The notes under the pieces were generated by a model, which searched no databases, was not told the origin of the DNA, and saw only the letters and a list, made by a program, of their open reading frames with translations. The position numbers and the translations under genes are program-made. From Sinimarinibacterium arenosum (GTDB lineage: Bacteria; Pseudomonadota; Gammaproteobacteria; Nevskiales; Nevskiaceae): DNA of 64,000 bases. Shown piece after piece: positions 36,770 through 54,601 of this stretch; position 1 is the stretch's first letter, and the number at the start of each line of letters is the position of its first letter. The DNA lies in the NCBI RefSeq assembly GCF_005047655.1, contig NZ_SUKF01000001.1, forward strand, positions 151,394 through 215,393, in the 5' to 3' direction.

Positions 36770-37198
36770 ATGCGACTGACCCAAGGTGCATTCTCTTTTC
36801 TGCCTGACCTCACCGATGAGGAGATTCGCTTGCAAGTCGACTACGGTCTCGAGCGTGGCTGGGCCTGGGCGATCGAGTACACAGACGACCCGCATCCTCG
36901 CAACACCTACTGGGAAATGTGGGGCACGCCGATGTTCGATTTGCGCGACGGTGCGGGCGTATTGCACGCATTGAATGAGTGTCGCAAAGCCTGCGGACGG
37001 GGATACATTCGCCTGTGCGCTTTTGATTCCACGCGCGGAGTGGAGTCAATCCGCATGGCGTTCATCGTCAATCGACCTGACGAAGAGCCCGGCTTCGGTC
37101 TTGATCGCCAGGAAGGTGAGGGTCGCAACATGCGCTACCGCCTGCATGGCTATGCGGCCGACCGATCGCCTGAAGAGCGATATCGGGCTGATCCATGA
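36770..37198 (+). CDS. cbbS: RuBisCO small subunit, red-type
   Basis: The 142-residue small subunit starts [19 protein letters not shown], includes [11 protein letters not shown], and has the C-terminal extension ([19 protein letters not shown]) that forms extra strands in red-type enzymes. It is 16 bases after cbbL, and its stop overlaps the cbbX start (ATGA). Confidence 0.96.
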
Positions 37199-39218: not shown

Positions 39219-39277
39219 AGGTCAGAAGCCTGACTGCTGGTGCGGCGTTGATCGTCGCATGACGACAGGAGCACATG

Positions 39278-40150: not shown

Positions 40151-40156
40151 GGGGCC

Positions 40157-40892: not shown

Positions 40893-40921
40893 TTGACGCC
40901 TGAGTGCCCGTGGTGTAAATC
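40893..40921 (+). promoter_or_regulatory. Putative promoter of the first YeeE/YedE transporter operon
   Basis: TTGACG at 40893-40898 and TAAATC at 40916-40921 are 17 bases apart. A dyad (40905-40936) and an ATAC-N8-GTAT operator-like site (40928-40943) overlap the -10 and the expected transcript start, as for a repressed promoter. Confidence 0.45.
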
Positions 40922-40936
40922 ACACCCATACGGGCA
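40905..40936. repeat. Nested inverted repeat upstream of the transporter genes
   Basis: Outer arms TGCCCGT (40905-40911) and ACGGGCA (40930-40936) enclose inner arms GGTGT (40912-40916) and ACACC (40922-40926), with a five-base loop and a CAT bulge. It could be a regulator-binding site or an RNA hairpin. No T-run follows, so it is not an obvious terminator of the cbb operon. Confidence 0.55.
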
Positions 40937-40943
40937 TGGGTAT
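40928..40943. promoter_or_regulatory. Candidate CsoR/CstR operator, copy 1
   Basis: ATACGGGCATGGGTAT has ATAC-N8-GTAT ends like the copy at 45362. It also lies inside an 18-base dyad ACCCAT-N6-ATGGGT (40924-40941). It is about 110 bases before the first YeeE/YedE gene, overlapping the predicted transcript start. The inner bases match the other copies less well. Confidence 0.4.
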
Positions 40944-41052
40944 ATCCCTCCGGCGATAAATAGATGAGGAGATCAAGCATGATTAGACGTTGCAATGCGT
41001 CTGTCGGGCGCGCGCCATTGAACAGAGATGCGGATTCTGAAGGGAATCAGCC

Positions 41053-41568
41053 ATGAATCAGCCCAAACCACTGTGGAATCCCTACGCTGCTGGAGCCTTG
41101 CTGGGCGCCGGTCTGTTGCTGACGTTCATGATGACCGGACATGGTCTGGGCGCCAGTGGATTCACCACTCGCCTGACCGCGGCGCTCGCACATGTTGCCG
41201 CACCGGAGGCCACCGAAGCCAACAGTTACATGGGTTCGATGGTCGAGGACGGTGCCAATCCACTGGATTCGTGGATCACCTGGCAGGTTATCGGGCTGGC
41301 ACTGGGGGCATTGATTGCTGCAGTTACCGCCGGTCGATTCAGGATCACGGTAGACGGACCGGGGCGCCTCAAAATAGGCACACGATTGCTGCTGGCATTC
41401 GCTGGTGGCGCCATCGCGGCCTTTGGTGCACGGATGTCGCTGGGATGTACCAGCGGTCTGGGGCTGTCCGGCGCGGCAACGCTGGCGACGGCCGGATTTC
41501 TGTTCCTGATCGGATTCTTTGCAACCGGGGCCGGATTCGGCCTGTTGATGAAGAGGTTTTGGCAATGA
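41053..41568 (+). CDS. YeeE/YedE family transporter, N-terminal half protein
   Basis: This 171-residue protein has about four membrane helices and the family motif GARMSLGCTSGLGLSG with Cys132. In the thiosulfate transporter TsuA (YeeE), one longer chain carries three essential cysteines that pass thiosulfate inward. Here the equivalent Cys are spread over this protein and the next (C33 and C102 there), suggesting the two form one transporter. It lies between the cbb and sox genes, so thiosulfate or a related sulfur anion is the likely cargo. The stop overlaps the next start (ATGA). Confidence 0.8.
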   Translation: MNQPKPLWNPYAAGALLGAGLLLTFMMTGHGLGASGFTTRLTAALAHVAAPEATEANSYMGSMVEDGANPLDSWITWQVIGLALGALIAAVTAGRFRITVDGPGRLKIGTRLLLAFAGGAIAAFGARMSLGCTSGLGLSGAATLATAGFLFLIGFFATGAGFGLLMKRFWQ

Positions 41569-42197
41569 CATTTCCCATGGCAATCAGCGGTGTGGCGTCG
41601 GGCCTGATCTGCGGTCTTATTTTTGGTTTCGCGCTTGAGCGCGCGGGCTTTGCCAGTGGATGCAAGTTGACCGCGCAGCTGCGCTTCCGTGACTGGGCCG
41701 TATTCAAGGTGATGTTCACGGCGATTCTGGTGTGCGCGCTCGGGCTGTATCTGTTGGATCTGACCGGCGTGATGCCATCAGAGATGATCTACATTCCGAC
41801 GACTTACGTGTGGGCGACGCTGCTGGGCGGCGTCGGCGTCGGTGCGGGTATGGCGATCGGGGGCTACTGTCCCGGCACCTCAGTGGTCAGCTTCATGTCA
41901 GGACGCATTGATGGACTGGTGTTCTTCGTCGGCCTGCTGTTCGGTACCTTGGCTTTTTCCGGCGTCTACGAGCGTCTTGAACCCGTGCTCGACGCGCTCC
42001 CCGGCCCGGAGGCACAAACTGTTCCGCAGCTGCTGCACTTGCCGACTTGGGTAGTGCTGGTCGCTCTGTTGGCCGTAGCGGTGGTGGTTGGCTGGCTGAC
42101 GCGCGGCCCGGTTCCTGATGCCCCATGCGCAACGCCTTCGAGCCGTGCGTCAACTGCACAGCCGCGGATCGGTGGTGCCACACGCAACGCGACCTGA
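41565..42197 (+). CDS. YeeE/YedE family transporter, C-terminal half protein
   Basis: This 210-residue, multi-helix protein has the paired signatures FALERAGFASGCKLTAQLRF (Cys33) and IGGYCPGTSVVSF (Cys102). It is coupled by ATGA to the preceding half. The hydrophilic tail after about residue 185 is unlike the family and may be poorly conserved. Together the two genes should form one sulfur-anion permease. Confidence 0.82.
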   Translation: MTFPMAISGVASGLICGLIFGFALERAGFASGCKLTAQLRFRDWAVFKVMFTAILVCALGLYLLDLTGVMPSEMIYIPTTYVWATLLGGVGVGAGMAIGGYCPGTSVVSFMSGRIDGLVFFVGLLFGTLAFSGVYERLEPVLDALPGPEAQTVPQLLHLPTWVVLVALLAVAVVVGWLTRGPVPDAPCATPSSRASTAQPRIGGATRNAT

Positions 42198-42259
42198 ACG
42201 GGCGAGTTCACGAGGGCCGCAAGTCGTGGGCCCGAAAACGTATGTTGATGGAGATGATG

Positions 42260-42538
42260 ATGTCCAAGAAGTCCCCCCGCAGTTCGCTCGCCAGTGCGGT
42301 TGGCGCCCTGAGTCTGGCTCTGAGCAGCGTCGCGGCGATGCCGGCCGCAGCCGAGGACATGGCGGCGGAGCCTTCGCCGGCCCCGACAGCGTCGGCGAGT
42401 CCTGACGCTTCGCAGTCAGCTGAGCCGACCACAGGTTCGACGACAGCGGCACCTGAACAGAAGCGCGATGCAAGCAATCCTTGCGCCCCTGCCAAGAAGA
42501 AGAAGCGGCCTGCGGGTCCCTGCGCGGTGGGTGGTTGA
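42260..42538 (+). CDS. Small exported protein with Lys-rich, two-Cys tail
   Basis: This 92-residue protein has a signal peptide (SLASAVGALSLALSSVAAMPAAA). A Pro/Ala/Ser/Thr-rich linker follows, and a tail NPCAPAKKKKRPAGPCAVGG in which two Cys flank a basic stretch. Of several clustered ATGs, 42260 is six bases from GGAG (42250-42253). It lies between the transporter and a His-rich unknown protein in the sulfur region. The tail might bind metal or sulfur species; no family is recognised. Confidence 0.6.
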   Translation: MSKKSPRSSLASAVGALSLALSSVAAMPAAAEDMAAEPSPAPTASASPDASQSAEPTTGSTTAAPEQKRDASNPCAPAKKKKRPAGPCAVGG

Positions 42539-42562
42539 GAGATCGGCGGCGGCGCCTGAGCC

Positions 42563-43261
42563 ATGGTTGCCCGCTACGGCGCGCTGGAGCCGAAGCTTGA
42601 TGCAACCCAGCTGCTGGCGCGGTGTGGCACCGATGAGCTGGAGCGGTCTGCCGCAGCGGCGGCGAGGTTGACGCAGCAGATGGTGCGAATGGCGCGGTTA
42701 GGCCGTTCAATCCTCAACGAGCTTGCTGATCCTGCTGCGGCTCCGAAGATCTGGCAGCACCTGCCGGAAGGCGACGCTCACGATCCGCGGAGCGGCTACC
42801 GCTACTACTACCACTGCCACCCGGGGCACGGCGCTACGCGCGCGGAGCACGGTCATTTTCACGTCTTCGCCGACGCCGACCGTGCTGGTGGCGTCACGCA
42901 CCTGGCTGCCATCGGGGTGGACGCGCATGGGTTGCCGCTGCGGCTGTTCACCACCAATCGCTGGATTACCGACGAGTGCTGGAAACCCGCGGGAAAGGTC
43001 CTGGATCTGATCGACGGCTTCGTATTGCGGGCGCCGCAGGGCCTGAAGCGTGTCCACGCGTGGTTGTCGGCATTGTTGCAGGTGTTTCGGCCGCAGCTCC
43101 GCTGGCTGCTGCGCGCACGTGATCAGCGCTTGCGTGAATTGCGCGGAGGTCAGCCGCGCCCAGGGCTGTTCGACGACCGCCGCGTCACGATATTGAGTCA
43201 ATTCCATGTTTCACTCGCACAGCAGGCGGTGGCGCTCGACGCGCTGACGGCCCGCGCATAA
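42563..43261 (+). CDS. Unknown protein with HCHPGHG...EHGHFHVF motif (DUF6969-like)
   Basis: This 232-residue protein has no signal peptide. Its striking part is YYYHCHPGHGATRAEHGHFH (residues about 89-108), a His-rich stretch that could bind a metal, followed by GVTHLAAIGVDAHGLPLRLF. The C-terminal half is helical and basic. I associate it with the DUF6969 family but cannot confirm this. It is 24 bases after the small exported protein and just before the rhodanese, suggesting a role in sulfur metabolism. Confidence 0.6.
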   Translation: MVARYGALEPKLDATQLLARCGTDELERSAAAAARLTQQMVRMARLGRSILNELADPAAAPKIWQHLPEGDAHDPRSGYRYYYHCHPGHGATRAEHGHFHVFADADRAGGVTHLAAIGVDAHGLPLRLFTTNRWITDECWKPAGKVLDLIDGFVLRAPQGLKRVHAWLSALLQVFRPQLRWLLRARDQRLRELRGGQPRPGLFDDRRVTILSQFHVSLAQQAVALDALTARA

Positions 43262-43284
43262 ATCAATCGACTGGAGGCAGCGTC

Positions 43285-44262
43285 ATGAAAGTATCTGTGT
43301 TGGCAAGTGTGTCCGCCATGGTGTTGGCGATGGGTTCAATGGCCGCGGTTGCCGGCGGCGTGCCGGGACCGGTGGTATCGGCGGAGTGGCTCAACAAGCA
43401 CGCCGGCGACGTCGTCGTTATCGATGTGCGCGACGATGCAGAGAGTTTTACGCAGGCGCCGGAGTACGAGTCCGGAGATGCCGGGGCCAAGAAACTGGTC
43501 GCAGCGGGTGGGCACATTGATGGAGCGCGACTGGTTGAGTTCGGCAAGCTTCGTGTCAGTCGCGAGATTGATGGCAAGAAGATCGACAAGCTGCTGCCGG
43601 ATCAGGCTTACGTCGAAGATCTGATGCAGTCCGCGGGCGTGCCCAAGGGCAAGGCGCTGGTAATCACCTCGCCCGGGGAAACCGTAAGCGAAGTCGAAGA
43701 GGCCGCGCGCCTGTACTGGACGCTGAAGGTCTATGGCGCCGATGACATGGCGATCCTCGACGGTGGCAATGCGGCCTGGCTCGAGGCGGGATACGCCGTC
43801 AGCACCGACAAGCCGTCAGCTGCGCGCGGCGACTGGAAGGCTTCTGCGGCGCGCAAGGCTTACCTAGCGGAGACTGCGGACGTCGAGAAGGCTACGAAAG
43901 GTGGAGTGCAACTGGTTGATGCGCGCCCGCTGGATCAGTATCTGGGGCTGAAGTTCAAGAAACCGGCCGTGACGGCAGGCGGGCATGTCGCTGGTGCCAA
44001 GAGCCTTCCCGGGGAAGTGCGCACACGCAGCGTCGGTATCTCGCAGAAATTCCTGAGCGAAAAGGAATATCGCGGTGTGCTGGCAGCGCAGGGTATTTCC
44101 ACGGATGCGCCGGCAATCACCTACTGCAACACCGGGCATATGGCCGCTGGGGCCTGGTTCGTCGAGAGCGAGATCATGGGCGGTAAGAACGTCAGCCTGT
44201 ACGACGGATCGATGCATGAATGGACCACGCTGGGCCATCCGGTCGTTGGTGTGACCGACTGA
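43285..44262 (+). CDS. Exported tandem-rhodanese sulfurtransferase
   Basis: This 325-residue periplasmic protein has a signal peptide (ASVSAMVLAMGSMAAVAGG) and two rhodanese domains. The C-terminal domain keeps the catalytic loop ITYCNTGHMAAG (C281). In the N-terminal domain the loop reads VITSPGET, with Ser129 at the Cys position. This one-active-domain pattern is typical of thiosulfate and 3-mercaptopyruvate sulfurtransferases. It could transfer sulfane sulfur from thiosulfate to cyanide or a thiol. A strong hairpin follows the stop. Confidence 0.88.
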   Translation: MKVSVLASVSAMVLAMGSMAAVAGGVPGPVVSAEWLNKHAGDVVVIDVRDDAESFTQAPEYESGDAGAKKLVAAGGHIDGARLVEFGKLRVSREIDGKKIDKLLPDQAYVEDLMQSAGVPKGKALVITSPGETVSEVEEAARLYWTLKVYGADDMAILDGGNAAWLEAGYAVSTDKPSAARGDWKASAARKAYLAETADVEKATKGGVQLVDARPLDQYLGLKFKKPAVTAGGHVAGAKSLPGEVRTRSVGISQKFLSEKEYRGVLAAQGISTDAPAITYCNTGHMAAGAWFVESEIMGGKNVSLYDGSMHEWTTLGHPVVGVTD

Positions 44263-44286
44263 TCGATTTCATTGGCTTGGATTGAA

Positions 44287-44321
44287 GACACCAGTGGGCG
44301 ACGCGCTCGTCCACTGGTGTC
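44287..44321. terminator. Bidirectional terminator hairpin
   Basis: An 11-base perfect stem (GACACCAGTGG at 44287-44297 with CCACTGGTGTC at 44311-44321) has a 13-base loop. It lies between the convergent rhodanese and metallo-hydrolase genes. No long T-run follows. Confidence 0.65.
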
Positions 44322-44327
44322 ATTCAT

Positions 44328-45332
44328 TCAATGCGGCGGAGCTTCCAGCAGCTCTGCCTGCATCTCCAGAAATACACTGTAGGCATTACGCCGGTTGGCG
44401 TCGGCAAAGGTGGGTAGATTGGCAAATGCCGACCAATCGGTCTTGACATAGGCTTCATCAAAATCTTCTAGCTGGGCTGCGGCATCACCCATGCGTTGCC
44501 TCAGGAACTGCAGATAGTCGTACGTCATTTTCAGGTCGTTTTCGACCGCGTGCGATGCGGCGCCATGTCCGGGCACCACAACCCTGGGGTGAATCTGCGC
44601 CATCCGTTCCAGCGCCCCCAACCAGTTTCGGGTATTGCTGCCGACAACGTAGGGCAGCCGACCGGTGAAGAACAGATCGCCGGAGAACAGCACGCTCGGC
44701 TCATGCGCGTACAGCATCAGATCGCTTGGCGAATGCGAGTCGCCGCCGTCAATCAGCTCGAAATGCATGCCGCCAAACTCGAACGGGATTGATCGCTCGT
44801 CGCCGAAGCGGATCCAGCGATCCGCAGGGATCAGTTGAGTATCAGAATTGACCCATGGCGCCAGTTCCTGGCGGCGAATCGTCAGGCGCTCACGCGCGGT
44901 GTCCGAGCTTAGATAGTCCTGGCCCGCATCGCGTGCCCAGATGGTCGCCCCTGCGGCTTTGAAGGCTTGCAGTCCGTAGATGTGGTCGGCGTGATAGTGA
45001 CTGATGATGACCAGCTTGATGGGAAGGTCGGTCACGTGTGCGATGGCATCGATCATTTCCGATCCCAGGGCTGGGGTGCCCAGCGCATCAAATACCACCA
45101 CCCCCGAAGCGGTGACAACGAATCCGGCATTGCTGGTGAAGCCACGATTGTCGGCGGCGGCGACGCCGGAGGTGCCGCGAAAGTACCAGGCGCCTTTGGC
45201 CACGGCCTGCGGGATCAGTTCAGGATCCTGGGCGATGATCTCATTTGGTGTCCGGGCGAGTGCGCAGGCGCACAGGGTGCATACCAGCAGGGCGGCTGCG
45301 GCGGCAAAAGTGGGTCGAATAAGTGACTGCAT
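44328..45332 (-). CDS. Exported metallo-beta-lactamase fold hydrolase, SoxH-like
   Basis: The 334-residue protein has a signal peptide (AAAAALLVCTLCACALA) and the metallo-hydrolase motif ISHYHADHIYG (H112, H114, D116, H117), plus LIDGGDSHSPSDLMLYA and VVVPGHGAAS. It resembles the SoxH and quinoprotein-relay metallohydrolase group that accompanies sox and methanol dehydrogenase genes. It is divergent from soxC and shares the 258-base spacer with the operator-like site at 45362. The substrate is unknown. Confidence 0.82.
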   Translation of the reverse strand: MQSLIRPTFAAAAALLVCTLCACALARTPNEIIAQDPELIPQAVAKGAWYFRGTSGVAAADNRGFTSNAGFVVTASGVVVFDALGTPALGSEMIDAIAHVTDLPIKLVIISHYHADHIYGLQAFKAAGATIWARDAGQDYLSSDTARERLTIRRQELAPWVNSDTQLIPADRWIRFGDERSIPFEFGGMHFELIDGGDSHSPSDLMLYAHEPSVLFSGDLFFTGRLPYVVGSNTRNWLGALERMAQIHPRVVVPGHGAASHAVENDLKMTYDYLQFLRQRMGDAAAQLEDFDEAYVKTDWSAFANLPTFADANRRNAYSVFLEMQAELLEAPPH

Positions 45333-45361
45333 GGGGCTTGTATATGCTCGCTGGACTTGAG

Positions 45362-45377
45362 ATACACTCGGGGGTAT
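45362..45377. promoter_or_regulatory. Candidate CsoR/CstR operator, copy 2, in the soxC upstream spacer
   Basis: ATACACTCGGGGGTAT is a near-palindrome (ATACNCNCGNGNGTAT) very like known CsoR/CstR operators. A TATAAC box (45375-45380) overlaps its right arm on the plus strand. It could control both soxC and the divergent metallo-hydrolase. The remaining 210 bases before soxC show no gene. Confidence 0.55.
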
Positions 45378-45590
45378 AACATATCGACGTATAAGTCACG
45401 CGCTGCTCTAGCCGCAAAGACGGCATGAATATAGTGCGACACCGTGCGAGGTGAGGATGAGAGCACACACTACAGGCGCTGTCGGCATTGGCTGTCCCCG
45501 TTATCAGGGGCGCCGTCGGCTATTACATCCGGGCGCGTGCCGCGGACAGGTTTTGCTGAGAGGGCTCGCTGGCCCCGAGGGCGGGCTGCA

Positions 45591-46946
45591 ATGACGTCTA
45601 AGAAAATCCGTCCAGGTCGTCTGCTCAAGGCACCAGAATCGTTCCTTGATCCGCAGTTTATTGCCGAGGTCAAGCAACACGGCTTTGACGAGACGCGCCG
45701 CGCATTTCTGCGCAAGAGTTTCCTTGCCGCCAGTGCGGCGCTGACCGCCGCGCCGTTGGGCGAGGCGCTGGCTGCGCCGGCACAGGGTGATCCGGACATT
45801 TTGAATCTGCCGCCATGGACGACTACGCTGGGCAAACCCGTAGCATCACGTCCGTATGGGTCGCCAGCGAAGTATGAAATGAATCTGGTGCGGCGCGAGA
45901 GTCCGGGGCTGGCCAGCGTGTCGCAGGCCTCCGTCGCGTTCACGCCCCTGCAGGGCATGTTCGGCATCATTACCGCGTCGGGCCTGCACTATGAGCGTCA
46001 TCACCAGGGTTGGGAGGAAATCGATCCTTCGCGGCATCGGTTGATGATCAATGGTCTGGTCAAGCGGCCGCGCGTCTACACCATGGACGATCTGATGCGG
46101 CTGCCATCGGTTTCGCGCATCCATTTTCTCGAGTGCGGAGCCAACTCGGCAATGGAGTGGGGCAACGTCGCGGTCCCAACGGTGCAATACACCCACGGCA
46201 TGCTATCGGGTTCTGAATTCACCGGCGTGCTGCTGTCAACCCTGCTGGAAGATGCCGGATTCGATCGCAAGCGGGGGCAATATCTTCTGGCGGAGGGCGC
46301 TGATGGTTCGAGCATGACGCGTACGCTGCCGATGGAACGCGTGCTCGACGACTGTCTGGTGGCCTACGGCATGAACGGTGAGATGCTGCGGCCGGAAAAT
46401 GGCTATCCATTGCGCCTAGTCGCGCCGGGGATTCAGGGCGTGTCCTGGGTCAAGTGGTTGCGCCGTCTCGAGGTTGGAGACAAGCCGTGGAATGCCAAGG
46501 ATGAAACGTCGCAGTACGCCGATCTGATGCCGGACGGCATGCAGCGCCAGTACGCGACGATTCAGGAGGCAAAGTCGGTTATCACCAGCCCGTCCGGCGG
46601 GCAGAAGCTGATCGACAAGGGGTTCTACAACGTCACCGGTCTGGCCTGGACGGGACGTGGCAAGGTCAAGCGCGTCGACGTGTCGTTTGACGGCGGCATC
46701 AATTGGCATGCCGCGAGGCTGGAACAGCCCGTTCTCCCCAAGGCGCTGACACGGTTCAACATCGATTGGGTCTGGAATGGCGCGCCTGCGATTCTTCAGA
46801 GCCGGGTAATCGACGACACCGGTTTTGTGCAGCCGACCTATACGCAGCTGCGCGAAGTGCGGGGAACGCGTTCGGTGTATCACAACAACGCCATCCAGTC
46901 GTGGAAAGTCGCCGAGTCCGGCGAAGTTTCCAACGTGCAGGTGTGA
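45591..46946 (+). CDS. soxC: Sulfane dehydrogenase SoxC, molybdenum subunit
   Basis: SoxC, with SoxD, oxidises the SoxY-bound sulfane sulfur in the periplasm and yields six electrons. The 451 residues have a Tat signal (ETRRAFLRKSFLAASAAL, R36-R37), a sulfite-oxidase-type molybdopterin domain with Mo-ligand Cys in FLECGANSAMEWG (C182), and a C-terminal dimerisation domain (VDVSFDGGINWHAARLE). ATG at 45591 follows GAGGG by nine bases and gives the usual length; the open frame from 45444 is leader. Confidence 0.96.
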   Translation: MTSKKIRPGRLLKAPESFLDPQFIAEVKQHGFDETRRAFLRKSFLAASAALTAAPLGEALAAPAQGDPDILNLPPWTTTLGKPVASRPYGSPAKYEMNLVRRESPGLASVSQASVAFTPLQGMFGIITASGLHYERHHQGWEEIDPSRHRLMINGLVKRPRVYTMDDLMRLPSVSRIHFLECGANSAMEWGNVAVPTVQYTHGMLSGSEFTGVLLSTLLEDAGFDRKRGQYLLAEGADGSSMTRTLPMERVLDDCLVAYGMNGEMLRPENGYPLRLVAPGIQGVSWVKWLRRLEVGDKPWNAKDETSQYADLMPDGMQRQYATIQEAKSVITSPSGGQKLIDKGFYNVTGLAWTGRGKVKRVDVSFDGGINWHAARLEQPVLPKALTRFNIDWVWNGAPAILQSRVIDDTGFVQPTYTQLREVRGTRSVYHNNAIQSWKVAESGEVSNVQV

Positions 46947-46951
46947 CCGCC

Positions 46952-47977
46952 ATGCGCCTACCGATAGTGTTTGGATGCTTTGCCGCCGCCGTCACGCTGA
47001 CGGCGCAGGCCGACTATGCGGGTGTCGGGCGGGATGCTACGCCAGCTGAAGTCGCTGCCTGGGACATTGACGTGCGCCCGGATTTTCTCGGACTACCCCC
47101 GGGTTCCGGGAGTGTCGAGGACGGCGAGGAACTGTGGATCGAGAAGTGTTCTAGCTGTCATGGTGACTTCGGCGATGCCAACCATGTGTTTCCTCCGCTG
47201 ATCGGCAACACCACCACCGAGGACATCGAAACCGGGCACGTCGCTTCGCTGAAGAAGGGTGGCGCGGTGCGCACCACCATTGCCAAGGTCAGCACGGTGT
47301 CGACCCTGTGGGACTTCATCAATCGTGCGATGCCGTGGAATGCGCCCAAGTCGTTGAGTACAGATCAGGTCTACGCGATTCTTGCGTATCTGCTGAATTT
47401 GGCCGAGATCGTGCCGAACGACTATGTGCTATCGAATGAGAACATCGCCGAGGTTCAGCAGCGCATGCCGAATCGCAACGGCATGACCCGTGACCACGGC
47501 ATGTGGACGATCGACGGCAAGCCGGATACGCATAACACCGCATGCATGAAGAACTGCAAGAAGGAGGCGACAATTCTGTCGTCGCTGCCGGACTATGCGC
47601 GTGGCGCCAACGGTGACCTATCAAAGCAGAATCGGGAGTATGGTCCGGTCCGCGGGGTGCCAACGCCTGAGCCAGGCGCCGCCGCGCCGGCAGCGGCAGC
47701 GACCGATGACAAGACGCCTGGACCGCCGACGGCGATCCTTGCCGCCAACGGCTGCACCGGATGTCACGGCATGGATCAGAAGGTTGTTGGCCCGGCGTTC
47801 AGCCACGTGGCTGAGAAGTATCATGGGCAGGCTGATATTGTGAGCCGTCTCAGTGGTCGCATCCGCAACGGTGGTTCCGGTAGTTGGGGATCGATCCCGA
47901 TGCCGCCGCAGCCGCAACTGACGGATGCTGAGATCCAGACGATTGTCGAATGGTTGGCCGCCGGCGCCAAGCATTAG
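46952..47977 (+). CDS. soxD: Sulfane dehydrogenase SoxD, dihaem cytochrome c subunit
   Basis: SoxD accepts electrons from SoxC. The 341 residues have a signal peptide and two haem c sites, CSSCH (66-70) and CTGCH (268-272). Two cytochrome domains are joined by a linker with an extra Cys pair (CMKNC, C198 and C202) and an Ala/Pro-rich stretch. RAMPW (M127) is a probable axial ligand. ATG at 46952 is used; GTG at 46943, overlapping the soxC stop, is an alternative. Confidence 0.94.
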   Translation: MRLPIVFGCFAAAVTLTAQADYAGVGRDATPAEVAAWDIDVRPDFLGLPPGSGSVEDGEELWIEKCSSCHGDFGDANHVFPPLIGNTTTEDIETGHVASLKKGGAVRTTIAKVSTVSTLWDFINRAMPWNAPKSLSTDQVYAILAYLLNLAEIVPNDYVLSNENIAEVQQRMPNRNGMTRDHGMWTIDGKPDTHNTACMKNCKKEATILSSLPDYARGANGDLSKQNREYGPVRGVPTPEPGAAAPAAAATDDKTPGPPTAILAANGCTGCHGMDQKVVGPAFSHVAEKYHGQADIVSRLSGRIRNGGSGSWGSIPMPPQPQLTDAEIQTIVEWLAAGAKH

Positions 47978-48037
47978 CATGAACCCACTTTGATCGCCGA
48001 TTGTGGCACCGACCGAAGAACCACGGAGTCAGTTGAT

Positions 48038-48499
48038 ATGAATTACCCCCGCAGATCATTCCTGAAGCTTGGCGGAAGCGCGCTGGCAGCGCTGGCGACG
48101 ACGGCAATGTGGCCGTTGCGCGCGCTGGCCGCTGCGGTGCGTCCCGAGGCAGCATTCGTCGCAAAGGATCTCGAAGGCACCTACAAGGGGCTGGGCGGCA
48201 CACCGACGGCAAGCGCCGAGATTGATCTCTCGACACCTGATATCGCGGAGAACGGGGCTGTGGTGCCGATCAACGTCACGAGCAAGCTTCCGGGGACCGA
48301 AGAGATCTACATTCTGGTCGAGAAAAACCCGAACCCGCTTGCGGCCGCCTTCACGATTCCCGAAGGGACGGAGCCTTTCGTCAGCCTGCGCGTCAAGGTT
48401 GCGCAGACCTGCAACCTGATTGCGGTGGTCAAGGCCGGGGGCAAGCTTTACAGCGCGTCCAAGGAAACCAAAGTCACGCTCGGCGGTTGCGGCGGCTAA
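48038..48499 (+). CDS. soxY: Sulfur-carrier protein SoxY
   Basis: SoxY carries the thiosulfate-derived substrate on a C-terminal Cys. The 153 residues end in GGCGG, the swinging-arm motif with Cys151. A Tat signal starts it (YPRRSFLKLGGSALAALA), allowing export as a folded SoxYZ heterodimer. The VEKNPNPLAAAFTIPEG segment is characteristic. GGAG at 48025-48028 precedes the ATG. Confidence 0.97.
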   Translation: MNYPRRSFLKLGGSALAALATTAMWPLRALAAAVRPEAAFVAKDLEGTYKGLGGTPTASAEIDLSTPDIAENGAVVPINVTSKLPGTEEIYILVEKNPNPLAAAFTIPEGTEPFVSLRVKVAQTCNLIAVVKAGGKLYSASKETKVTLGGCGG

Positions 48500-48547
48500 G
48501 GCCGCGCAGTTCATTCGCCGTCAACGCAATCAATCTGGAGATACACC

Positions 48548-48859
48548 ATGGCAAGCCCGATGCGGATTCGAGCCAAGACCACCGATGGCATCACCGAGGT
48601 CAAGGCACTGATGTCGCACCCGATGGAAACCGGCATGCGCAAGGATGCGGAAGGTAAACCGATCCCTGCGCACTACATTACTGAAGTCACCGCCACCCAC
48701 AACGACAAGCTGGTGCTGCATGCCTACTGGGGGCCGGCGGTTTCGCAGAATCCGTTCCTCAATTTCCAATTCAAGGGCGGCGCTGCGGGTGACACCGTGA
48801 CGATCAAGTGGGTCGACAATCTGGGCGAGTCGCAGACCGAACAGGCGACGCTGTCCTGA
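48548..48859 (+). CDS. soxZ: SoxYZ complex subunit SoxZ
   Basis: SoxZ is the partner of SoxY. The 103 residues begin MRIRAK after four residues and include EVKALMSHPMETG and FLNFQFKGGAAGDTVTIKW, which are diagnostic. It has no signal peptide and is exported with SoxY. GGAG precedes the ATG. Confidence 0.97.
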   Translation: MASPMRIRAKTTDGITEVKALMSHPMETGMRKDAEGKPIPAHYITEVTATHNDKLVLHAYWGPAVSQNPFLNFQFKGGAAGDTVTIKWVDNLGESQTEQATLS

Positions 48860-48905
48860 ACGTTGCGTCACCACCTCGCGGCGTCGACTCCGGAGTATCC
48901 AAGGC

Positions 48906-49730
48906 ATGAAAATCGACAAGAGCATCTTTGCCGCACTGGCTTGGGTCTCATTGGCGGTACTGACCGTACCGGACAGCGCCGTTGCGCAGGATGATGGCGA
49001 CAACGTCTTCGCGCAGTACCGCGAGATGTTCGGGGATGACAATCCAGCCGAGCTTATCGAGCTGCAGGGTGAGGATCTGTGGTCGCAGGTGCGTGGGCCG
49101 AAGAAAGCGTCGCTGGAAAAGTGCGATCTCGGCCTTGGGCCGGGCAAGCTGGATGGCGCCTACGCGCAGCTGCCGCGTTACTTTGCTGACACCAAGCACG
49201 TGATGGATCTGGAAACACGGCTGGTCTACTGCATGGTGACGCTGCAGGGATTTTCTGAAAAGGATCTGGTCGCCAAACCGTTCTCGGGGCGAGGCGAACA
49301 GCCCAGCGATCTCGAAGCGCTGTCGGCATTCATTGCGGGTCGATCGCGTGGCGCGCCCATCAAGGTATCGCAGTCGCACGCGCAGGAGCGTGCGGCCTAT
49401 GAGCGCGGCAAGGAATTCTTCTACTACCGAGCGGGGCCGCATGACTTTTCCTGTGCGACCTGTCATTCACAGAGCGGTAAGCGCATCCGCCTGCAGGCAT
49501 TGCCCAATCTGACCGAGGCGGCAGAAGCACGCAAGGCCTACTCGACGTGGCCGGGCTACCGAATTTCCGAAGGTACCGTGCGTACGATGGAATGGCGCAT
49601 GGGAGATTGCGTGCGGCAGCAGCGGTTGCCCGAGCTGCAGTTCGGTTCGGATATTGCGATCGGACTGATCACCTATTTGGGCGTGATGGCCAACGGAGAG
49701 CCGATGAACGCTCCCGGCCTGAAACGCTAG
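48906..49730 (+). CDS. soxA: SoxA, catalytic subunit of L-cysteine S-thiosulfotransferase
   Basis: SoxA (with SoxX) couples thiosulfate to the SoxY Cys. The 274 residues contain only one haem site, CATCH (183-187). The N-terminal domain has lost the haem and keeps Cys73 and Cys109, probably as a disulfide. The active-site persulfide Cys is in GDCVRQQRLPEL (C235). It is thus a mono-haem SoxA. A signal peptide is present. Confidence 0.96.
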   Translation: MKIDKSIFAALAWVSLAVLTVPDSAVAQDDGDNVFAQYREMFGDDNPAELIELQGEDLWSQVRGPKKASLEKCDLGLGPGKLDGAYAQLPRYFADTKHVMDLETRLVYCMVTLQGFSEKDLVAKPFSGRGEQPSDLEALSAFIAGRSRGAPIKVSQSHAQERAAYERGKEFFYYRAGPHDFSCATCHSQSGKRIRLQALPNLTEAAEARKAYSTWPGYRISEGTVRTMEWRMGDCVRQQRLPELQFGSDIAIGLITYLGVMANGEPMNAPGLKR

Positions 49731-49741
49731 CGGAGACTGAC

Positions 49742-50353
49742 ATGCACCGTACTGTGAAGTGGGGCCTGCTGGGCGCTGCGCTGTGCTGTACCTCGATGCT
49801 GGCCGCTGCGGCGGGCAAGTCGGATCCGTTGGGAAATGTTGCCGCGTCGTTCAAGGCGCATGGTCAGGCGGGCATGGACCGGCTCGAGCGCGATCCGATG
49901 CAGCAGGCCTGCAGTCAGCCGGCGAGTAGCGAACCTTCCGCAGAGGTGGCCAAGTCGATCAGCCGCAGCGCGCAGGAGCGCGTCAAGCCGCCGTCGGACG
50001 GGCAGTATCTTGGCGACTGGAAAGCGGGCGAAAAGATCGCGCAGACGGGCAAGGGCATGCAGTATTCGGACGATCCGGCCGAGCCTAACGGCGGTAACTG
50101 CTATGCCTGTCATCAGATGGCAGGTAGCGAAATCGCCTATGGCACGCTCGGGCCGAGTCTGAGCCAGTACGGCAAGCTGCGCGGCACCAGCCCGGCGATT
50201 CTCGAATACACCTGGACGCGTTTGTGGAATTCACACGTCTACAACGTTTGTTCCCACATGCCGCGTTTCGGCGATGCTGGCATTCTGACAGAGCAACAGC
50301 TGAAGGATGTGATGGCGTATCTGTTCGATCTGGATTCACCAGTCAACCAGTAG
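49742..50353 (+). CDS. soxX: SoxX, monohaem cytochrome c subunit
   Basis: SoxX takes electrons from SoxA. The 203 residues have a signal peptide (GLLGAALCCTSMLAAAAG), haem site CYACH (120-124) and the axial-Met segment VCSHMPRFG (M173). The N-terminal extension of about 80 residues is longer than in minimal SoxX proteins. It starts 11 bases after soxA. Confidence 0.95.
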   Translation: MHRTVKWGLLGAALCCTSMLAAAAGKSDPLGNVAASFKAHGQAGMDRLERDPMQQACSQPASSEPSAEVAKSISRSAQERVKPPSDGQYLGDWKAGEKIAQTGKGMQYSDDPAEPNGGNCYACHQMAGSEIAYGTLGPSLSQYGKLRGTSPAILEYTWTRLWNSHVYNVCSHMPRFGDAGILTEQQLKDVMAYLFDLDSPVNQ

Positions 50354-50368
50354 GACAGGAGCGGGCAC

Positions 50369-52078
50369 ATGAATCGGCGTGATTTTCTGCAGGTGCTGGC
50401 GGCAGCTGCCGCAGCCGGAATGCCGCTGACGCCACGTAGCGCGTGGGCGGGCTCGCAGTTCGATGGGCTGTATCAGGTGCCGCGCTTCGGCAATGTGCAT
50501 CTGTTGCACATGACCGATTCGCACGCGCAGTTGCAGCCGATCTATTTCCGCGAACCGTCCGTCAATCTGGGCATTGGCGAGGCGCGCAATCGAGCGCCGC
50601 ACATTGTTGGCGCCAACTTCCTGAAGCAGTTCGGGCTCAAGCCCGGAACACCGGAAGCCTATGCATTCTCCTGTCTCGATTTCGAGGCGGCGGCGCAGCG
50701 CTATGGCAAGGTCGGCGGATTTGCGCATCTAGCAACCCTGGTCAAGCAGCTGAAGGCTTCGCGTCCCGGTGCCTTGCTGCTGGATGGGGGTGATACCTGG
50801 CAGGGCTCCGGTACAGCTCTGTGGACCAAAGGCCAGGACATGGTCGATGCGATCCTGCAGCTGGGTGTCGACGTGATGACCGCGCATTGGGAATTCACCT
50901 TGGGCGAGGAGCGCGTCCAGGAACTGGTCAGCGGGCCGCTGAAAGGCAAGATCGATTTTCTGGCGCAGAACGTGGCCACCGCGGACTTCGGCGATCCTGT
51001 GTTCGAGGCCTACACCCTGCGTGAGATGAATGGTGTTCCGGTCGCGATCATTGGTCAGGCGTTCCCGTATACGCCGATCGCCAACCCGGGGCATCTGGTG
51101 CCGAACTGGACTTTCGGCATCCAGGAAGAACACCTGCAGTCAGTCATTGACGAAGCTCGCGGCAAAGGCGCCCAGGTTGTCGTGCTGTTGTCGCATAACG
51201 GCATGGACGTTGATCTGAAACTGGCCGGTCGTGTGCGCGGTCTCGACGCGATCCTCGGTGGGCACACGCATGACGGCATGCCTCAGCCGGTGCTGGTCGA
51301 TAACGGTGCCGGCAAGACGCTGGTGACCAATGCCGGCAGCAACGCCAAGTTCCTCGGCGTGCTCGATTTTGACGTCAAGAAAGGCAAGATCTCCGACTGG
51401 CGGTATCGTCTGTTGCCCGTGTTTGCCGATGCACTGCCGGCCGACCCCGGCATGCAGGCGCTGATCACGCGCGTGCGCAAGCCTTACGAGAAGCAGCTCG
51501 GCGAGGTCCTGGCGACGACGGAAGATCTGCTCTATCGCCGTGGAAATTTCAACGGCACCTTCGACCAGCTGATCGTCGACGCGATGCTTGATGTGCGCGA
51601 AGCGCAGATCGCATTTTCGCCGGGCTTTCGCTGGGGCACGAGCCTGTTGCCGGGCAGCCCGATCACAATGGAGCATGTTCTCGATCAGACCGCGATCACC
51701 TATCCCAGCACGACATTGACCGAGATGAGCGGCGAGCGCGTCAAAGCCGTGCTGGAAGATGTTGCCGACAATCTGTTCAACCCCGATCCCTACTACCAGC
51801 AGGGTGGAGACATGGTTCGCGTCGGTGGGCTGACCTATGCCATCGATCCCGGTGCGGTGATGGGGCAGCGGATTCAGGACATGCGGCTCGACGGCAAGCC
51901 GCTCGACGCCAGCAAGACTTACAAGGTGGCCGGCTGGGCATCGGTGCAGCCCAATGCCAGCGGCGAGCCGATCTGGGATGTGGTGGCGCAATGGTTGCGC
52001 GATCGAAAGACGGTGACGGTGCCGACGCTCAATCAGCCGCGTCTGATCGGCATCGGCGACAACCAAGGTCTGGTATGA
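50369..52078 (+). CDS. soxB: Thiosulfohydrolase SoxB
   Basis: SoxB hydrolyses the sulfonate from SoxY-Cys-thiosulfonate to release sulfate. The 569 residues belong to the 5'-nucleotidase metallophosphatase family, with metal-site segments LLHMTDSHAQLQP (D50, H52), LLDGGDTWQGSG and AHWEFTLGEE, the last replacing GNHE as in other SoxB proteins. A Tat signal NRRDFLQVLAAA is present. It ends the soxCDYZAXB operon. Confidence 0.97.
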   Translation: MNRRDFLQVLAAAAAAGMPLTPRSAWAGSQFDGLYQVPRFGNVHLLHMTDSHAQLQPIYFREPSVNLGIGEARNRAPHIVGANFLKQFGLKPGTPEAYAFSCLDFEAAAQRYGKVGGFAHLATLVKQLKASRPGALLLDGGDTWQGSGTALWTKGQDMVDAILQLGVDVMTAHWEFTLGEERVQELVSGPLKGKIDFLAQNVATADFGDPVFEAYTLREMNGVPVAIIGQAFPYTPIANPGHLVPNWTFGIQEEHLQSVIDEARGKGAQVVVLLSHNGMDVDLKLAGRVRGLDAILGGHTHDGMPQPVLVDNGAGKTLVTNAGSNAKFLGVLDFDVKKGKISDWRYRLLPVFADALPADPGMQALITRVRKPYEKQLGEVLATTEDLLYRRGNFNGTFDQLIVDAMLDVREAQIAFSPGFRWGTSLLPGSPITMEHVLDQTAITYPSTTLTEMSGERVKAVLEDVADNLFNPDPYYQQGGDMVRVGGLTYAIDPGAVMGQRIQDMRLDGKPLDASKTYKVAGWASVQPNASGEPIWDVVAQWLRDRKTVTVPTLNQPRLIGIGDNQGLV

Positions 52079-52119
52079 CGCAGGCGGTTCCGCGTCTGAC
52101 GGCCCATCACCAAGCCGCC

Positions 52120-52455
52120 TCAGGCGTACTTGGCCAGCAGGCGGGTCTTCTCGGCAATGCGTTCGCGGGCCTTGTCGTCCGTTGGCGTGCCTTGCAGTTC
52201 CATTTCCAGGCTGCAGGCCATCATTTCGTAAAACGCGCGGTCGAGCGCCTTGCGAGCGGCAGCCAGCTGCTGCGCGATGGCATCGCAGTCCTCATCGCGT
52301 TCGATCATCGTCAGGACACCGCGAATCTGGCCCTCGACCCGGCGCAGACGATGCACCACGTCCTGCTGGTGGGAGGGCGGAGTCAGCGCCGCTGGCGCAG
52401 CAGCACTCTTGCTTGCCGGACGGGCGGACTTGCTGGATTTGGCGGGCGACGGCAT
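52120..52455 (-). CDS. CsoR/RcnR/CstR-family repressor, probably persulfide-sensing
   Basis: The 111-residue DUF156 protein has an Ala/Ser/Lys-rich N-tail and the core VVHRLRRVEGQIRGVLTMIE. The first sensing Cys is in DEDCDAI (C57). In the second helix the copper-sensor His and Cys positions are Ser82 and Glu86, while Cys81 is present (FYEMMACSLEMEL). Two Cys without the copper His fits thiol-persulfide sensors of the CstR type rather than CsoR. It is divergent from a YeeE-YeeE-ETHE1-thioredoxin operon and has an operator-like dyad 14 bases before its start. Confidence 0.82.
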   Translation of the reverse strand: MPSPAKSSKSARPASKSAAAPAALTPPSHQQDVVHRLRRVEGQIRGVLTMIERDEDCDAIAQQLAAARKALDRAFYEMMACSLEMELQGTPTDDKARERIAEKTRLLAKYA

Positions 52456-52468
52456 GTGGATTCCCTCT

Positions 52469-52484
52469 ACCCCGGTGCGGGGGT
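52469..52484. promoter_or_regulatory. Candidate CsoR/CstR operator, copy 3, autoregulatory
   Basis: ACCCCGGTGCGGGGGT has arms ACCCC and GGGGT around six bases, close to CsoR-family operators. It lies in the spacer between the repressor and the divergent transporter genes, so it can serve both. Confidence 0.55.
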
Positions 52485-52595
52485 GTTTTACGCAAAGCAG
52501 TTAATGGGCCAGGTCCGCGGTACAAATGCTGACGGGGTTGCCTCCGATACTACCGACTGCCAGAGTGGCGTGCACGCCAATGAGGGGAGGCAGAC

Positions 52596-53033
52596 GTGGA
52601 GATTGTGATTCAACCGGAGCAGTGGTTGCGCTCGCTGGCCGGTGGCTTGTTGATAGGTTTTTCGGCGGTGCTGCTATTGGGCATTAATGGTCGCATTGCC
52701 GGGATCAGCAGCATTCTGGCCGGCATTCTGCCGTCTGCCCGAGTGATGTCGGAGTGGTCCTGGCGCGCGATGTTCATCGTCGGCCTGATCCTGGGCGGAG
52801 CGGTGTTCGCGCTGCTGTGGCCGGGCGCACTGCAGCACACCTTGCAGACCGGCTGGACCGGCATGGCTCTGGCCGGGCTGATCGTCGGATTCGGAACGCG
52901 GATGGGCAGTGGCTGCACTTCGGGGCACGGGGTTTGCGGCATCGCGCGTACATCGCGGCGTTCGATCGTGGCGACTATCACGTTCATGGCTTGCGGCATG
53001 CTTACCGTCTTTATCGTGCATCACGTGCTATGA
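52596..53033 (+). CDS. Second YeeE/YedE-type half transporter (N-terminal)
   Basis: This 145-residue protein has four membrane helices with the motif GTRMGSGCTSGHGVCG (C107, C114). Its GTG start is preceded by GGGGAGG (52584-52590). It is of the short PmpA-like type often linked to persulfide metabolism, unlike the longer pair at 41053. It overlaps the next gene by ATGA. Confidence 0.85.
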   Translation: MEIVIQPEQWLRSLAGGLLIGFSAVLLLGINGRIAGISSILAGILPSARVMSEWSWRAMFIVGLILGGAVFALLWPGALQHTLQTGWTGMALAGLIVGFGTRMGSGCTSGHGVCGIARTSRRSIVATITFMACGMLTVFIVHHVL

Positions 53034-53509
53034 CGCTCAGAAAATCCCTGTCGGCACTGCTTTGCGGCCTGCTATTCGGAATTGGCCTGAGTCTGGGCGG
53101 AATGACTGACCCGGCCAAGGTTGTCGCATTCCTCGATCTCGCCGGGCATTGGGATCCGTCGCTGGCGTTTGTCATGGGAGGCGCTTTGTTGCTGACCACG
53201 CCGGCTTTCCGTTGGTTGCTGCGGCTGAAGCGGCCGATGTTCGAAGAGCGGTTCGTTCTGCCGACCAAGCAGGATCTGGATTTCAATCTGCTTGCGGGTT
53301 CCGCGCTGTTTGGAATCGGCTGGGGCATCACCGGGCTGTGCCCCGGACCTGCGATCGTTGCGCTGGCGACTGGCGTGCCGCAGTTCTTCGTGTTTGTTGC
53401 AGCGATGATTGCCGGCATGTGGTTGAGCGATCGCGTGACCCTGTTGCAGACCCGGCGACAGATGATGCGTGCGGGCTTGCCGTCCGCATCGAATCTTTCC
53501 GGCTCGTAG
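53030..53509 (+). CDS. Second YeeE/YedE-type half transporter (DUF6691-like, C-terminal)
   Basis: This 159-residue protein has about four helices, with LLFGIGLSLGGMTDPAKVVAF and GIGWGITGLCPGPAIVAL (Cys104), typical PmpB-like signatures. With the preceding gene it forms a second split transporter, probably for a sulfur species. The frame is open upstream, but the ATGA junction at 53030 is the likely start. Confidence 0.85.
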   Translation: MTLRKSLSALLCGLLFGIGLSLGGMTDPAKVVAFLDLAGHWDPSLAFVMGGALLLTTPAFRWLLRLKRPMFEERFVLPTKQDLDFNLLAGSALFGIGWGITGLCPGPAIVALATGVPQFFVFVAAMIAGMWLSDRVTLLQTRRQMMRAGLPSASNLSGS

Positions 53510-53537
53510 ACATGCGACTGCAGACGCGAGTTACGGC

Positions 53538-54233
53538 GTGATTTTCCGGCAGCTGTTCGATGCGGCTTCGAGCACGTACACCTACGTGCTGGCTTCCGCG
53601 CGCGGACGTGAAGCCTTGATCATCGACCCGGTCAAGGAACAGCTGCCGCACTACCTCGCACTGATCCGCGATCTGGACCTCAAGCTGGTGACGGCGATCG
53701 ATACGCATACGCATGCCGATCACATCACGGCGCTGGGTGATCTGCGCGACAGCACCGGCTGTGTGACCGTGATGGGCGAATTCACCCGCGCGCAGTGCGT
53801 GTCGAGCCGCGTCGTCGATGGTCAGATGCTTGATGTCGACGGCATCCGTCTGCAGGCGCTGTACACGCCGGGACACACGGATGAATCGTTCAGCTTTGTG
53901 CTGCAACCGGATCGACCGAAAGCGGTCTTCACCGGCGACGTGTTGCTGATCCGTGGCACAGGGCGCACCGACTTTCAGGGCGGCGATCCCCGCAAGTCCT
54001 GGAATTCGATCGTCAACACTCTTTTCCGTCTCGACGACGATACGCTGGTTTACCCCGGACACGACTACAAGGGCTGGACCGCATCGAGCATCGGCGAAGA
54101 GAAGCGCGCCAATCCACGATTGGCCGGCAAGACCGAGGACGAGTATGTGCAGATCATGACTTCACTGAATCTGCCGAATCCGCGTTTGATGGATATTGCA
54201 GTGCCGGCCAATCTCGCATGCGGGAAGCAATAG
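53538..54233 (+). CDS. ETHE1-like persulfide dioxygenase
   Basis: This metallo-beta-lactamase-fold enzyme oxidises glutathione persulfide to sulfite using one Fe(II). The 231 residues have THTHADH (H57, H59, D61, H62), GHTDES (H113), FTGDVLLIRGTGRTDFQGG (D134) and YPGHDYKG (H175), all diagnostic of ETHE1 rather than glyoxalase II. GTG at 53538 gives the standard N-terminus (IFRQLFDAASSTYTYVL). It lies with CsoR/CstR-like and YeeE genes, as in cst-type operons of other bacteria. Confidence 0.92.
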   Translation: MIFRQLFDAASSTYTYVLASARGREALIIDPVKEQLPHYLALIRDLDLKLVTAIDTHTHADHITALGDLRDSTGCVTVMGEFTRAQCVSSRVVDGQMLDVDGIRLQALYTPGHTDESFSFVLQPDRPKAVFTGDVLLIRGTGRTDFQGGDPRKSWNSIVNTLFRLDDDTLVYPGHDYKGWTASSIGEEKRANPRLAGKTEDEYVQIMTSLNLPNPRLMDIAVPANLACGKQ

Positions 54234-54601
54234 GGCATCACCTGCCTGACGCATCCGTGCGTGCCCTGGCGGTGGCGCTACTGTTGTCCGCCATTGCGTC
54301 GCCGCTTTCGGCGGCAGAACTGCTGATGTACACCGATCCCAGCTGCGGTCCCTGCCGCCTGTTCGAGCATGAAGTCGGCGGCATCTACGCCAAGACAGCC
54401 GAACACCAGCGGGCGCCGCTGCGACGCGTCGAAATCCACGCCGCGCAACCTGATGATTTGTATGGCGTCGAGGTGCCGGCTGTCGCGCCGACCTTTGTGC
54501 TGATCGACGCTGGCCGGGAAATCGGCCGCTTCAGCGGCTACGCCAATGACGAGCTGTTCTGGCTCAGCCTGACCGCCTTGCTGGAGCGCCTTCCTGACTG
54601 A
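54218..54601 (+). CDS. Exported thioredoxin-fold protein (SoxW/SoxS-like)
   Basis: This 127-residue protein has a signal segment (LAVALLLSAIASPLSAAE) and a thioredoxin motif SCGPC (C43, C46) followed by the cis-Pro region VPAVAPTFVLID. SoxW/SoxS-type periplasmic thioredoxins keep the SoxY Cys reduced. The gene overlaps the ETHE1 gene by 16 bases; an alternative GTG start at 54257 would remove the overlap. Confidence 0.8.
   Translation: MREAIGHHLPDASVRALAVALLLSAIASPLSAAELLMYTDPSCGPCRLFEHEVGGIYAKTAEHQRAPLRRVEIHAAQPDDLYGVEVPAVAPTFVLIDAGREIGRFSGYANDELFWLSLTALLERLPD

Follow-up and report, generated by a model that had tools for sequence, protein, structure and literature searches.

A predicted CsoR-family regulon of sulfur import and sox genes in Sinimarinibacterium arenosum

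A repressor of the CsoR family, which is known above all for copper sensors, probably turns on a cluster of sulfur import and sulfur oxidation genes in Sinimarinibacterium arenosum. The cluster lies in a stretch of 64,000 nucleotides (contig NZ_SUKF01000001.1, positions 151,394 to 215,393), here called the window, whose numbering is used throughout. We consider it likely, from the sequence, that this repressor acts at two predicted operators, starting at 40928 and 45362, and controls the YeeE1/rhodanese genes, a hydrolase gene and soxCDYZAXB in response to sulfane sulfur. Matching sites in relatives suggest that the wiring is real, and some relatives lack it or carry another regulator. CsoR-family control of sox has already been published for Thermus (PMC10318464), and the system described here is a variant.

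Results

The cluster starts with two YeeE/YedE-like half transporters on the plus strand, YeeE1a and YeeE1b (41053..42197, PF04143), with partial TsuA matches below the cut-off. They are followed on the same strand by an ORF of unknown function that is kept beside YeeE1 in relatives (42563..43261) and by a rhodanese-like protein with two rhodanese stretches (43285..44262, PF00581). A SoxH-like hydrolase of the metallo-beta-lactamase fold is encoded on the minus strand (44328..45332, PF00753); it scores 162.6 bits against TIGR04559 (cut-off 280) and stays under the curated SoxH-related cut-offs. The genes soxC, soxD, soxY, soxZ, soxA, soxX and soxB occupy 45591..52078 of the plus strand (TIGR04488, TIGR04490, TIGR04484, TIGR04485 and TIGR04486, with soxC matching TIGR04555). 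SoxD was assigned by position and homology, its profile matches being to general cytochrome c models only, and the soxC start was taken as the ATG at 45591, with an in-frame GTG at 45444 also possible. The cluster ends on the plus strand with the PmpA/PmpB-like half transporters YeeE2a and YeeE2b (52596..53509, PF04143 and PF20398), an ETHE1-like persulfide dioxygenase candidate (53469..54233, PF00753) and a thioredoxin-like protein (54218..54601). The ETHE1-like ORF matches NF040641 partially and below cut-off, and its true start is probably later than that of the listed ORF; the thioredoxin-like protein matches PF13098 and PF00085 with E < 0.001, yet under the curated cut-offs. The half transporters, rhodanese, sox genes and ETHE1-like hydrolase were all found where the initial annotation had placed them, as was a two-cysteine protein of the CsoR/CstR family.

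This protein of 111 residues, encoded on the minus strand (52120..52455), matches PF02583 with 73.4 bits (curated cut-off 22.8) and is the sole match to this profile in the whole genome. Helices at residues 28-52, 57-88 and 93-110 give it the three-helix fold of the CsoR/RcnR family, and its cysteines, C57 and C81, are both invariant in 15 of 15 aligned members. The earlier label "CstR-type" holds for the fold, the gene neighbours and the form of the operator. In the fold comparison the top match was CstR of Streptococcus pneumoniae, with FrmR and InrS next and CsoR structures also matched. In all 14 relatives whose csoR locus was read, the locus contains the YeeE2 pair or YeeE1, and csoR has an operator of the form ATAC-N8-GTAT, which in the window is found at YeeE1 and in the soxC spacer but not at csoR. 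The label does not hold for the second cysteine. CstR proteins were taken to have two cysteines about 29 residues apart, the second at the position equivalent to CsoR Cys65 (the cysteines of Enterococcus faecalis CstR are reported as C31 and C62); in the regulator C57 and C81 are 24 apart, and E86 occupies the CstR cysteine position in the alignment. With its second cysteine at +24 instead of +29, the protein does not qualify as a canonical CstR by this alignment.

Both predicted operators match ATAC-N8-GTAT exactly. They were scored with a matrix built from the csoR sites of 13 relatives, from which the window and all sox sites were kept out (the csoR site of G002 was omitted as well, though it fits the pattern). 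The site before YeeE1, ATACGGGCATGGGTAT (40928..40943), lies 6 bp past a -10-like hexamer and scores 11.5 bits (shuffle p 0.015); its orthologous counterpart in G004 scores 16.3 bits. The site in the spacer between the hydrolase gene and soxC, ATACACTCGGGGGTAT (45362..45377), scores 18.6 bits (shuffle p 0.001). The spacer blocks around both sites are conserved in G004, which belongs to the same genus, so that this identity partly reflects shared descent. A promoter-like arrangement before YeeE1, TTGACG-N17-TAAATC (40893..40921, plus strand), was found by eye and is also present in G004 and G002; a consensus promoter scan gave no hit in any of the three spacers concerned, including the YeeE1 upstream region.

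The two dyads are exactly where they had been proposed, against 0.10 exact matches expected in the window. The suggested scan of the whole 4.5 Mb genome gave 16 exact matches, compared with 8 for the pattern read backwards, and at genome density 0.002 matches are expected in the three spacers (595 bp), a post hoc figure. The genome-wide count alone was rejected as proof, because the 40928 site is outscored by 11 of the remaining 14 exact matches, and its score falls within their range. Nine of these 14 lie inside open frames of at least 250 codons, four of them no more than 100 bases from one end of the frame. With a looser test at 80 codons, both window sites are also covered by short frames on the antisense strand, of 81 and 83 codons, and only the 250-codon count is used for this reason.

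A further dyad, ACCCCGGTGCGGGGGT (52469..52484), had been read as an operator at the csoR promoter. It is present but has another motif, and neither its role as a third operator copy nor autoregulation through it was borne out. Its score with the operator matrix is -5.7 bits, and it was not seen in the aligned G004 spacer; ACCCC-N6-GGGGT occurs once in the genome, as does its backwards control, and a terminator scan called a terminator-like hairpin on the plus strand, so the dyad is perhaps a terminator hairpin. No 16-mer in the csoR-yeeE2 spacer of the window reached 0 bits, and the matrix scan found no operator in the window spacer preceding YeeE2. Since the 52469 dyad is a different motif, csoR, YeeE2 and ETHE1 are without a predicted operator in the window. 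The three dyads are therefore not one set, two of them sharing a motif from which the third differs. A regulon with an operator at each proposed promoter, linking both transporters, sox and persulfide oxidation, was recovered for YeeE1 and the hydrolase/soxC spacer but not for csoR/YeeE2; at csoR, YeeE2 and ETHE1 the same operator type is found in relatives only.

The regulator has matches in 37 relatives, of which 14 had their csoR loci read, and the csoR promoter carries an exact ATAC-N8-GTAT in every one of the 14. Of the named loci, 40 of 80 were read. Among sox genomes, soxC or its operon head is preceded by a site scoring 10.9 bits or more in 9 of the 14 that have the regulator and in 0 of the 18 that lack it (one-sided Fisher 7e-5, kinship not corrected), and seven of the nine positive genomes belong to the window's own family. 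The regulator is present and a sox site was not found in G015, G026, G166, G429 and G432; in G432 the regulator is 1 kb from soxC, yet there is no sox site. The cut-off was fixed on the first 29 sox genomes, and lowering it to 10.0 bits would admit G116 (10.5 bits, shuffle p 0.108), a genome that lacks the regulator. Within those 29 the site was present in 8 of 8 genomes with a sox-linked regulator and in 0 of 21 others, the link in G002 being inferred across two contig ends. This clean split broke down when three more genomes were added, of which G444 was positive and G429 and G432 were negative, which is why 9/14 versus 0/18 is the figure given. G052, with sites of 15.6 bits at YeeE1 and 20.4 bits at soxD, was counted at operon heads because soxC itself scores 3.4 bits. 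Treated apart were G051 and G012, which have a SoxC-like match and no SoxB match, and the second SoxC-like match of G015. Upstream of YeeE1, a site of at least 9 bits was found in 7 of 9 genomes examined, the G024 site having belonged to the training set.

Seven PF01022 (ArsR HTH) matches were found in the genome and none within the window, confirming the earlier remark that no ArsR-type soxR lies there. A SqrR/BigR-like ArsR gene is encoded on a different contig from sox (L191:9529-9882), divergently from an sqr-like gene and on the same stretch as a second ETHE1-like gene. A neighbouring ArsR gene of this type also accompanies sox in G371 and, less strongly, G282. The SqrR/BigR-like regulator could contribute to sox control. 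It is improbable, in our view, that sox is mainly under this ArsR protein or under both regulators, as gene and sox are on different contigs. The SqrR dyad is ATTC-N8-GAAT, which is missing from the spacer of the ArsR gene itself and has one match in the window (9108), outside the sox spacers, so that its distribution carries little weight here. The earlier claim that sox here has come under a CsoR/CstR-type repressor "instead of SoxR" stands in part. In its favour are the shared operator type and the contrast within one genus between G150, where the regulator gene adjoins soxB and soxC is preceded by an operator, and G371, with a weak regulator match (5e-7), no operator and a SqrR/SoxR-like ArsR gene 0.4 kb before soxC; against it are the 5 of 14 genomes without a sox site and the SqrR-like gene elsewhere.

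The 45362 operator might act on the divergent hydrolase gene only, soxC being otherwise controlled. The gap between the site and the start codon of the hydrolase gene is 30 bp, whereas the ATG of soxC is about 213 bp away, and G024 has a separate site for its hydrolase gene. We regard this as unlikely in view of the soxC-proximal sites in G023, G150, G020 and G444 (50, 137, 165 and about 50 bp upstream of the gene) and two weaker G024 sites in the rhodanese-soxC spacer, which suggest that the operator may act on soxC as well. The CsoR family also includes copper, nickel/cobalt and formaldehyde sensors, and the sulfur neighbourhood could be a side role of such a sensor, given that FrmR and InrS stand directly behind CstR in the fold ranking and that the closest NCBIfam models are RicR and FrmR, all far under cut-off. 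Cu(I)-sensing CsoR proteins use Cys-His-Cys ligands; these are not kept in the aligned regulator, where S82 and E86 take the places of the His and the second Cys, and this, the sulfur-gene neighbours and an operator matching that of a sulfane-sulfur sensor make a metal or formaldehyde sensor quite improbable. Least probable is that the dyads are chance palindromes, as the further exact genome matches outscoring 40928 might imply: each of the two window sites is located in a promoter spacer and conserved in G004, the same genes bear the motif in other genomes as well, and most of the other exact matches fall in long open frames.

Discussion

In the mechanism that we favour, regulation by the CsoR-family repressor at both sites, the protein with reduced cysteines would bind the 16-bp operators and block the promoters of the YeeE1/rhodanese operon and, divergently, of the hydrolase gene and soxCDYZAXB. 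When sulfane sulfur (persulfide or polysulfide) accumulates in the cytoplasm, perhaps through YeeE-type import, it would probably bridge C57 and C81 of neighbouring subunits. The repressor would then come off its operators, and the import of sulfur and its oxidation by Sox would increase together.

The control of sox is sparsely known. Besides ArsR-type SoxR and two-component systems, PMC10318464 names its own case, TTHA1953, a CsoR-family repressor of sox in Thermus thermophilus HB8 and, by that account, the first published link between this family and sox. TTHA1953 likewise has two cysteines, reported as C39 and C68 (+29, versus +24 here); its operator is TACNNTACNNNNGTANNGTA, compared with ATAC-N8-GTAT here, its gene is apart from its targets, unlike the regulator gene here, and it was not released by NaHS (PMC10318464). 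ScCsoR of Streptomyces coelicolor is a persulfide sensor that polysulfide releases from DNA, and its mapped operator, ATACC-N6-GGTAT, has the same 16-bp form as the one found here (PMC7533328). Its cysteines are C37 and C66 (+29, versus +24), and its reported targets are a persulfide dioxygenase, a rhodanese and a sulfite exporter, with no sox among them (PMC7533328). The CstR proteins of Staphylococcus, Enterococcus and Streptococcus share the fold, two cysteines and sulfurtransferase-type neighbours (PMC5480029, PMC9405070; PDB 7mq1-7mq3), but their second cysteine comes about five positions later than C81, and the targets reported there are cst-type operons, not sox. In Hyphomicrobium denitrificans the ArsR-type SoxR is likewise a sulfane-sulfur-responsive sox repressor with adjoining YeeE-like transporters (PMC10451225, PMC11582611), a response that is predicted here; SoxR belongs to an unrelated protein family, and SoxT is full-length, compared with the split halves in the window.

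A predicted proteobacterial CsoR-family regulon, with one operator type for sulfur import and Sox, would make sox control testable in many genomes. The +24 cysteine arrangement is unlike that of the CstR proteins compared from the literature. We tentatively suggest, while rating it slightly below even chances, that +24-cysteine CsoR-family proteins may represent a distinct sulfane-sulfur switch, found largely in Proteobacteria, whose pair of cysteines is not accounted for by known CstR geometry and which has repeatedly been wired into, and lost from, sox operons in exchange with ArsR-type SoxR. G150 and G371 provide a case of such regulator exchange within one genus.

Gene cluster and operator-like dyads

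The sulfur cluster of the window (G000:C1:151394-215393, G000 being the window's own genome) comprises the half transporters YeeE1a/b with an ORF and a rhodanese gene (41053-44262), a divergent metallo-hydrolase gene (44328-45332, minus strand), soxCDYZAXB (45591-52078), a CsoR-family gene (52120-52455, minus strand), and YeeE2a/b (52596-53509), accompanied by genes for an ETHE1-like hydrolase and a thioredoxin-like protein. By eye, cbbX-, fructose-bisphosphatase-, phosphoribulokinase- and phosphoglycolate phosphatase-like ORFs lie directly before the cluster (37195-40852), and the last two of the four also precede YeeE1 in G004, a genome of the same genus. This arrangement suggests sulfur-driven carbon fixation.

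The initial annotation had proposed three operator dyads, of which those at 40928 and 45362 proved to share one motif, ATAC-N8-GTAT (two copies in the window, 0.10 expected). Genome-wide, this motif occurred 16 times, versus 8 for the pattern read backwards; 9 of the 14 sites outside the window lay inside open frames (putative genes) of at least 250 codons, 4 of these 9 within 100 bases of the frame end. The third dyad, ACCCC-N6-GGGGT at 52469, is distinct and was rejected as an instance of the same motif; it was flagged as a terminator-like hairpin, and its single genomic copy equals the count for its backwards control.

The regulator was matched in 38 of 61 genomes, own genome counted, and csoR loci were read in 14 of the 37 others. 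All 14 carried an exact ATAC-N8-GTAT in the promoter region of csoR, in most cases in the spacer that csoR shares with a divergent YeeE2 pair. A symmetric matrix was built from 13 csoR-promoter sites of relatives, leaving out the window, sox sites and the related genome G002. With this matrix, the 45362 site scored 18.6 bits and the 40928 site 11.5 bits, while the csoR-yeeE2 spacer of the window contained no site reaching 0 bits, leaving the suggested operator at csoR's own promoter, and autoregulation in G000, unsupported. In alignments with G004, GAGATACA.T.GGGGGTATAACATA and CACACCCATACGGGC..GGGTATA were identical blocks; the rest of the spacers had diverged.

Predicted operators before sox co-occur with the regulator

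We compared 32 sox genomes, drawn from 61 relatives (SoxB in 9), 369 genomes from the class (21 of them, own genome counted, with SoxC at an E-value no higher than 1e-130), and 85 genomes of the order (three new). The regulator, searched with an alignment of its members (A1; E below 1e-25), was present in 14. Predicted sites of at least 10.9 bits before soxC or the operon head were found in nine of these 14 (G000, G002, G004, G020, G023, G024, G052 (operon heads), G150 and G444) versus none of the 18 genomes without the regulator (one-sided Fisher 7e-5, uncorrected for kinship), a comparison made among related genomes, its cut-off having been set from a subset of them. The best score without the regulator was 10.5 bits (G116). 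Seven of the nine positive genomes belong to the window's own family. No site of at least 10.9 bits was found upstream of soxC or the operon head in the regulator-bearing G015 (listed in that family), G026, G166, G429 and G432. YeeE1 had a predicted site of at least 9 bits in 7 of 9, and ETHE1 its own predicted site in G052 and G444.

The 45362 site may serve the hydrolase gene only. In a Burkholderiales MAG (L065), csoR is divergent from a run of genes that continues into sox; the spacer between them (L065:9560-9740) contains a predicted operator of 15.1 bits and, beside it, a 17-bp ATAC-N9-GTAT dyad identified by eye. In an Oleiagrimonas MAG (L098), csoR is beside sox, and the contig stops at soxC. 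In G432 (L232:13434-14767), csoR precedes soxC by 1 kb, the two being separated by an ORF that by eye is enoyl-CoA-hydratase-like; no operator was found at soxC or YeeE1 despite the nearby csoR.

One genus offers a possible case of regulator exchange. Its member G150 has the regulator 0.1 kb away from soxB and a site of 18.1 bits before soxC. In G371, which belongs to this genus too, the regulator match is only weak (5e-7), a SqrR-like ArsR gene lies 0.4 kb before soxC, and no operator site was found upstream of soxC (3.8 bits). In G282, which has neither a regulator match nor a sox site, an ArsR match 2.7 kb before soxC is weaker (33% identity). In the window's genome, seven matches to PF01022 were found, one of them SqrR/BigR-like (2.4e-26 to an ArsR-family PDB sequence which we take to be SqrR; BigR model match below its cut-off). 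Its gene lies in a second sulfur locus (L191:9529-17398, G000:C20), divergent from a sqr-like gene (match below the curated cut-off); on the same stretch are a second ETHE1-like gene, which shares 79% identity with the first, and what by eye resembles a cytochrome bd gene.

Sensor cysteines and relation to known regulators

All 15 aligned members share the cysteines C57 and C81 of the regulator, which lie 24 positions apart. This spacing differs from those given, in the portions of the reports consulted, for ScCsoR (C37/C66, 29; PMC7533328), TTHA1953 (C39/C68, 29; PMC10318464), S. aureus CstR (C31/C60, 29) and the E. faecalis sensor (C31/C62, 31), the last two from PMC5480029 and PMC9405070. 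In a profile alignment, the CstR cysteine of S. pneumoniae falls five residues after C81. Among 40 named loci, 19 proteins had the cysteine at +24 (by label, 17 proteobacterial, one Bacillota, one only "bacterium"), 18 had it at +29, and 3 were unclassified. The structure model, a monomer with mean pLDDT 80, best matched S. pneumoniae CstR, then FrmR and InrS.

Exact ATAC-N8-GTAT was also seen in L089, L091, L092, L093, L094, L097, L099 and L100, on contigs of Bacillota and Actinobacteria type that carry CsoR-family genes; an ETHE1-like match shares the locus in all but L099 (7/8). CstR-like proteins in general may use this operator form.

Thermus already provides a published case of sox under CsoR-family control, going by the part of the account consulted (PMC10318464). 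That case has another operator and +29 cysteines, whereas the proteobacterial version predicted here from sequence differs in both, with ATAC-N8-GTAT and a spacing of 24. A literature search, mostly at listing level and largely without subscription journals, found no CsoR-family control of sox for Proteobacteria, and a word search of the available text of two SoxR papers (PMC12423496, PMC10451225) found neither CsoR nor CstR.

Proposed mechanism

Genes, sites, conservation and co-occurrence form the observed basis of the proposed mechanism. ScCsoR, according to the portion of its report consulted, binds the same operator form and is released from DNA by polysulfide via its cysteines (PMC7533328). 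The reduced repressor would sit at the YeeE1 transcription start, where TTGACG-N17-TAAATC ends 6 bp before the operator; G004 and G002 share this layout, and a consensus promoter scan did not detect the element. It would also sit in the hydrolase/sox spacer. Sulfane sulfur in the cytoplasm would release it.

Within the hydrolase/sox spacer, a 45-codon ORF with two Cys (45457-45594) starts at an ATG inside a conserved GAGG-rich block, and its TGA overlaps the soxC ATG at 45591 (ATGA). G004 has a 46-codon ORF with the same position and overlap and little sequence likeness; a coupled leader peptide is possible.
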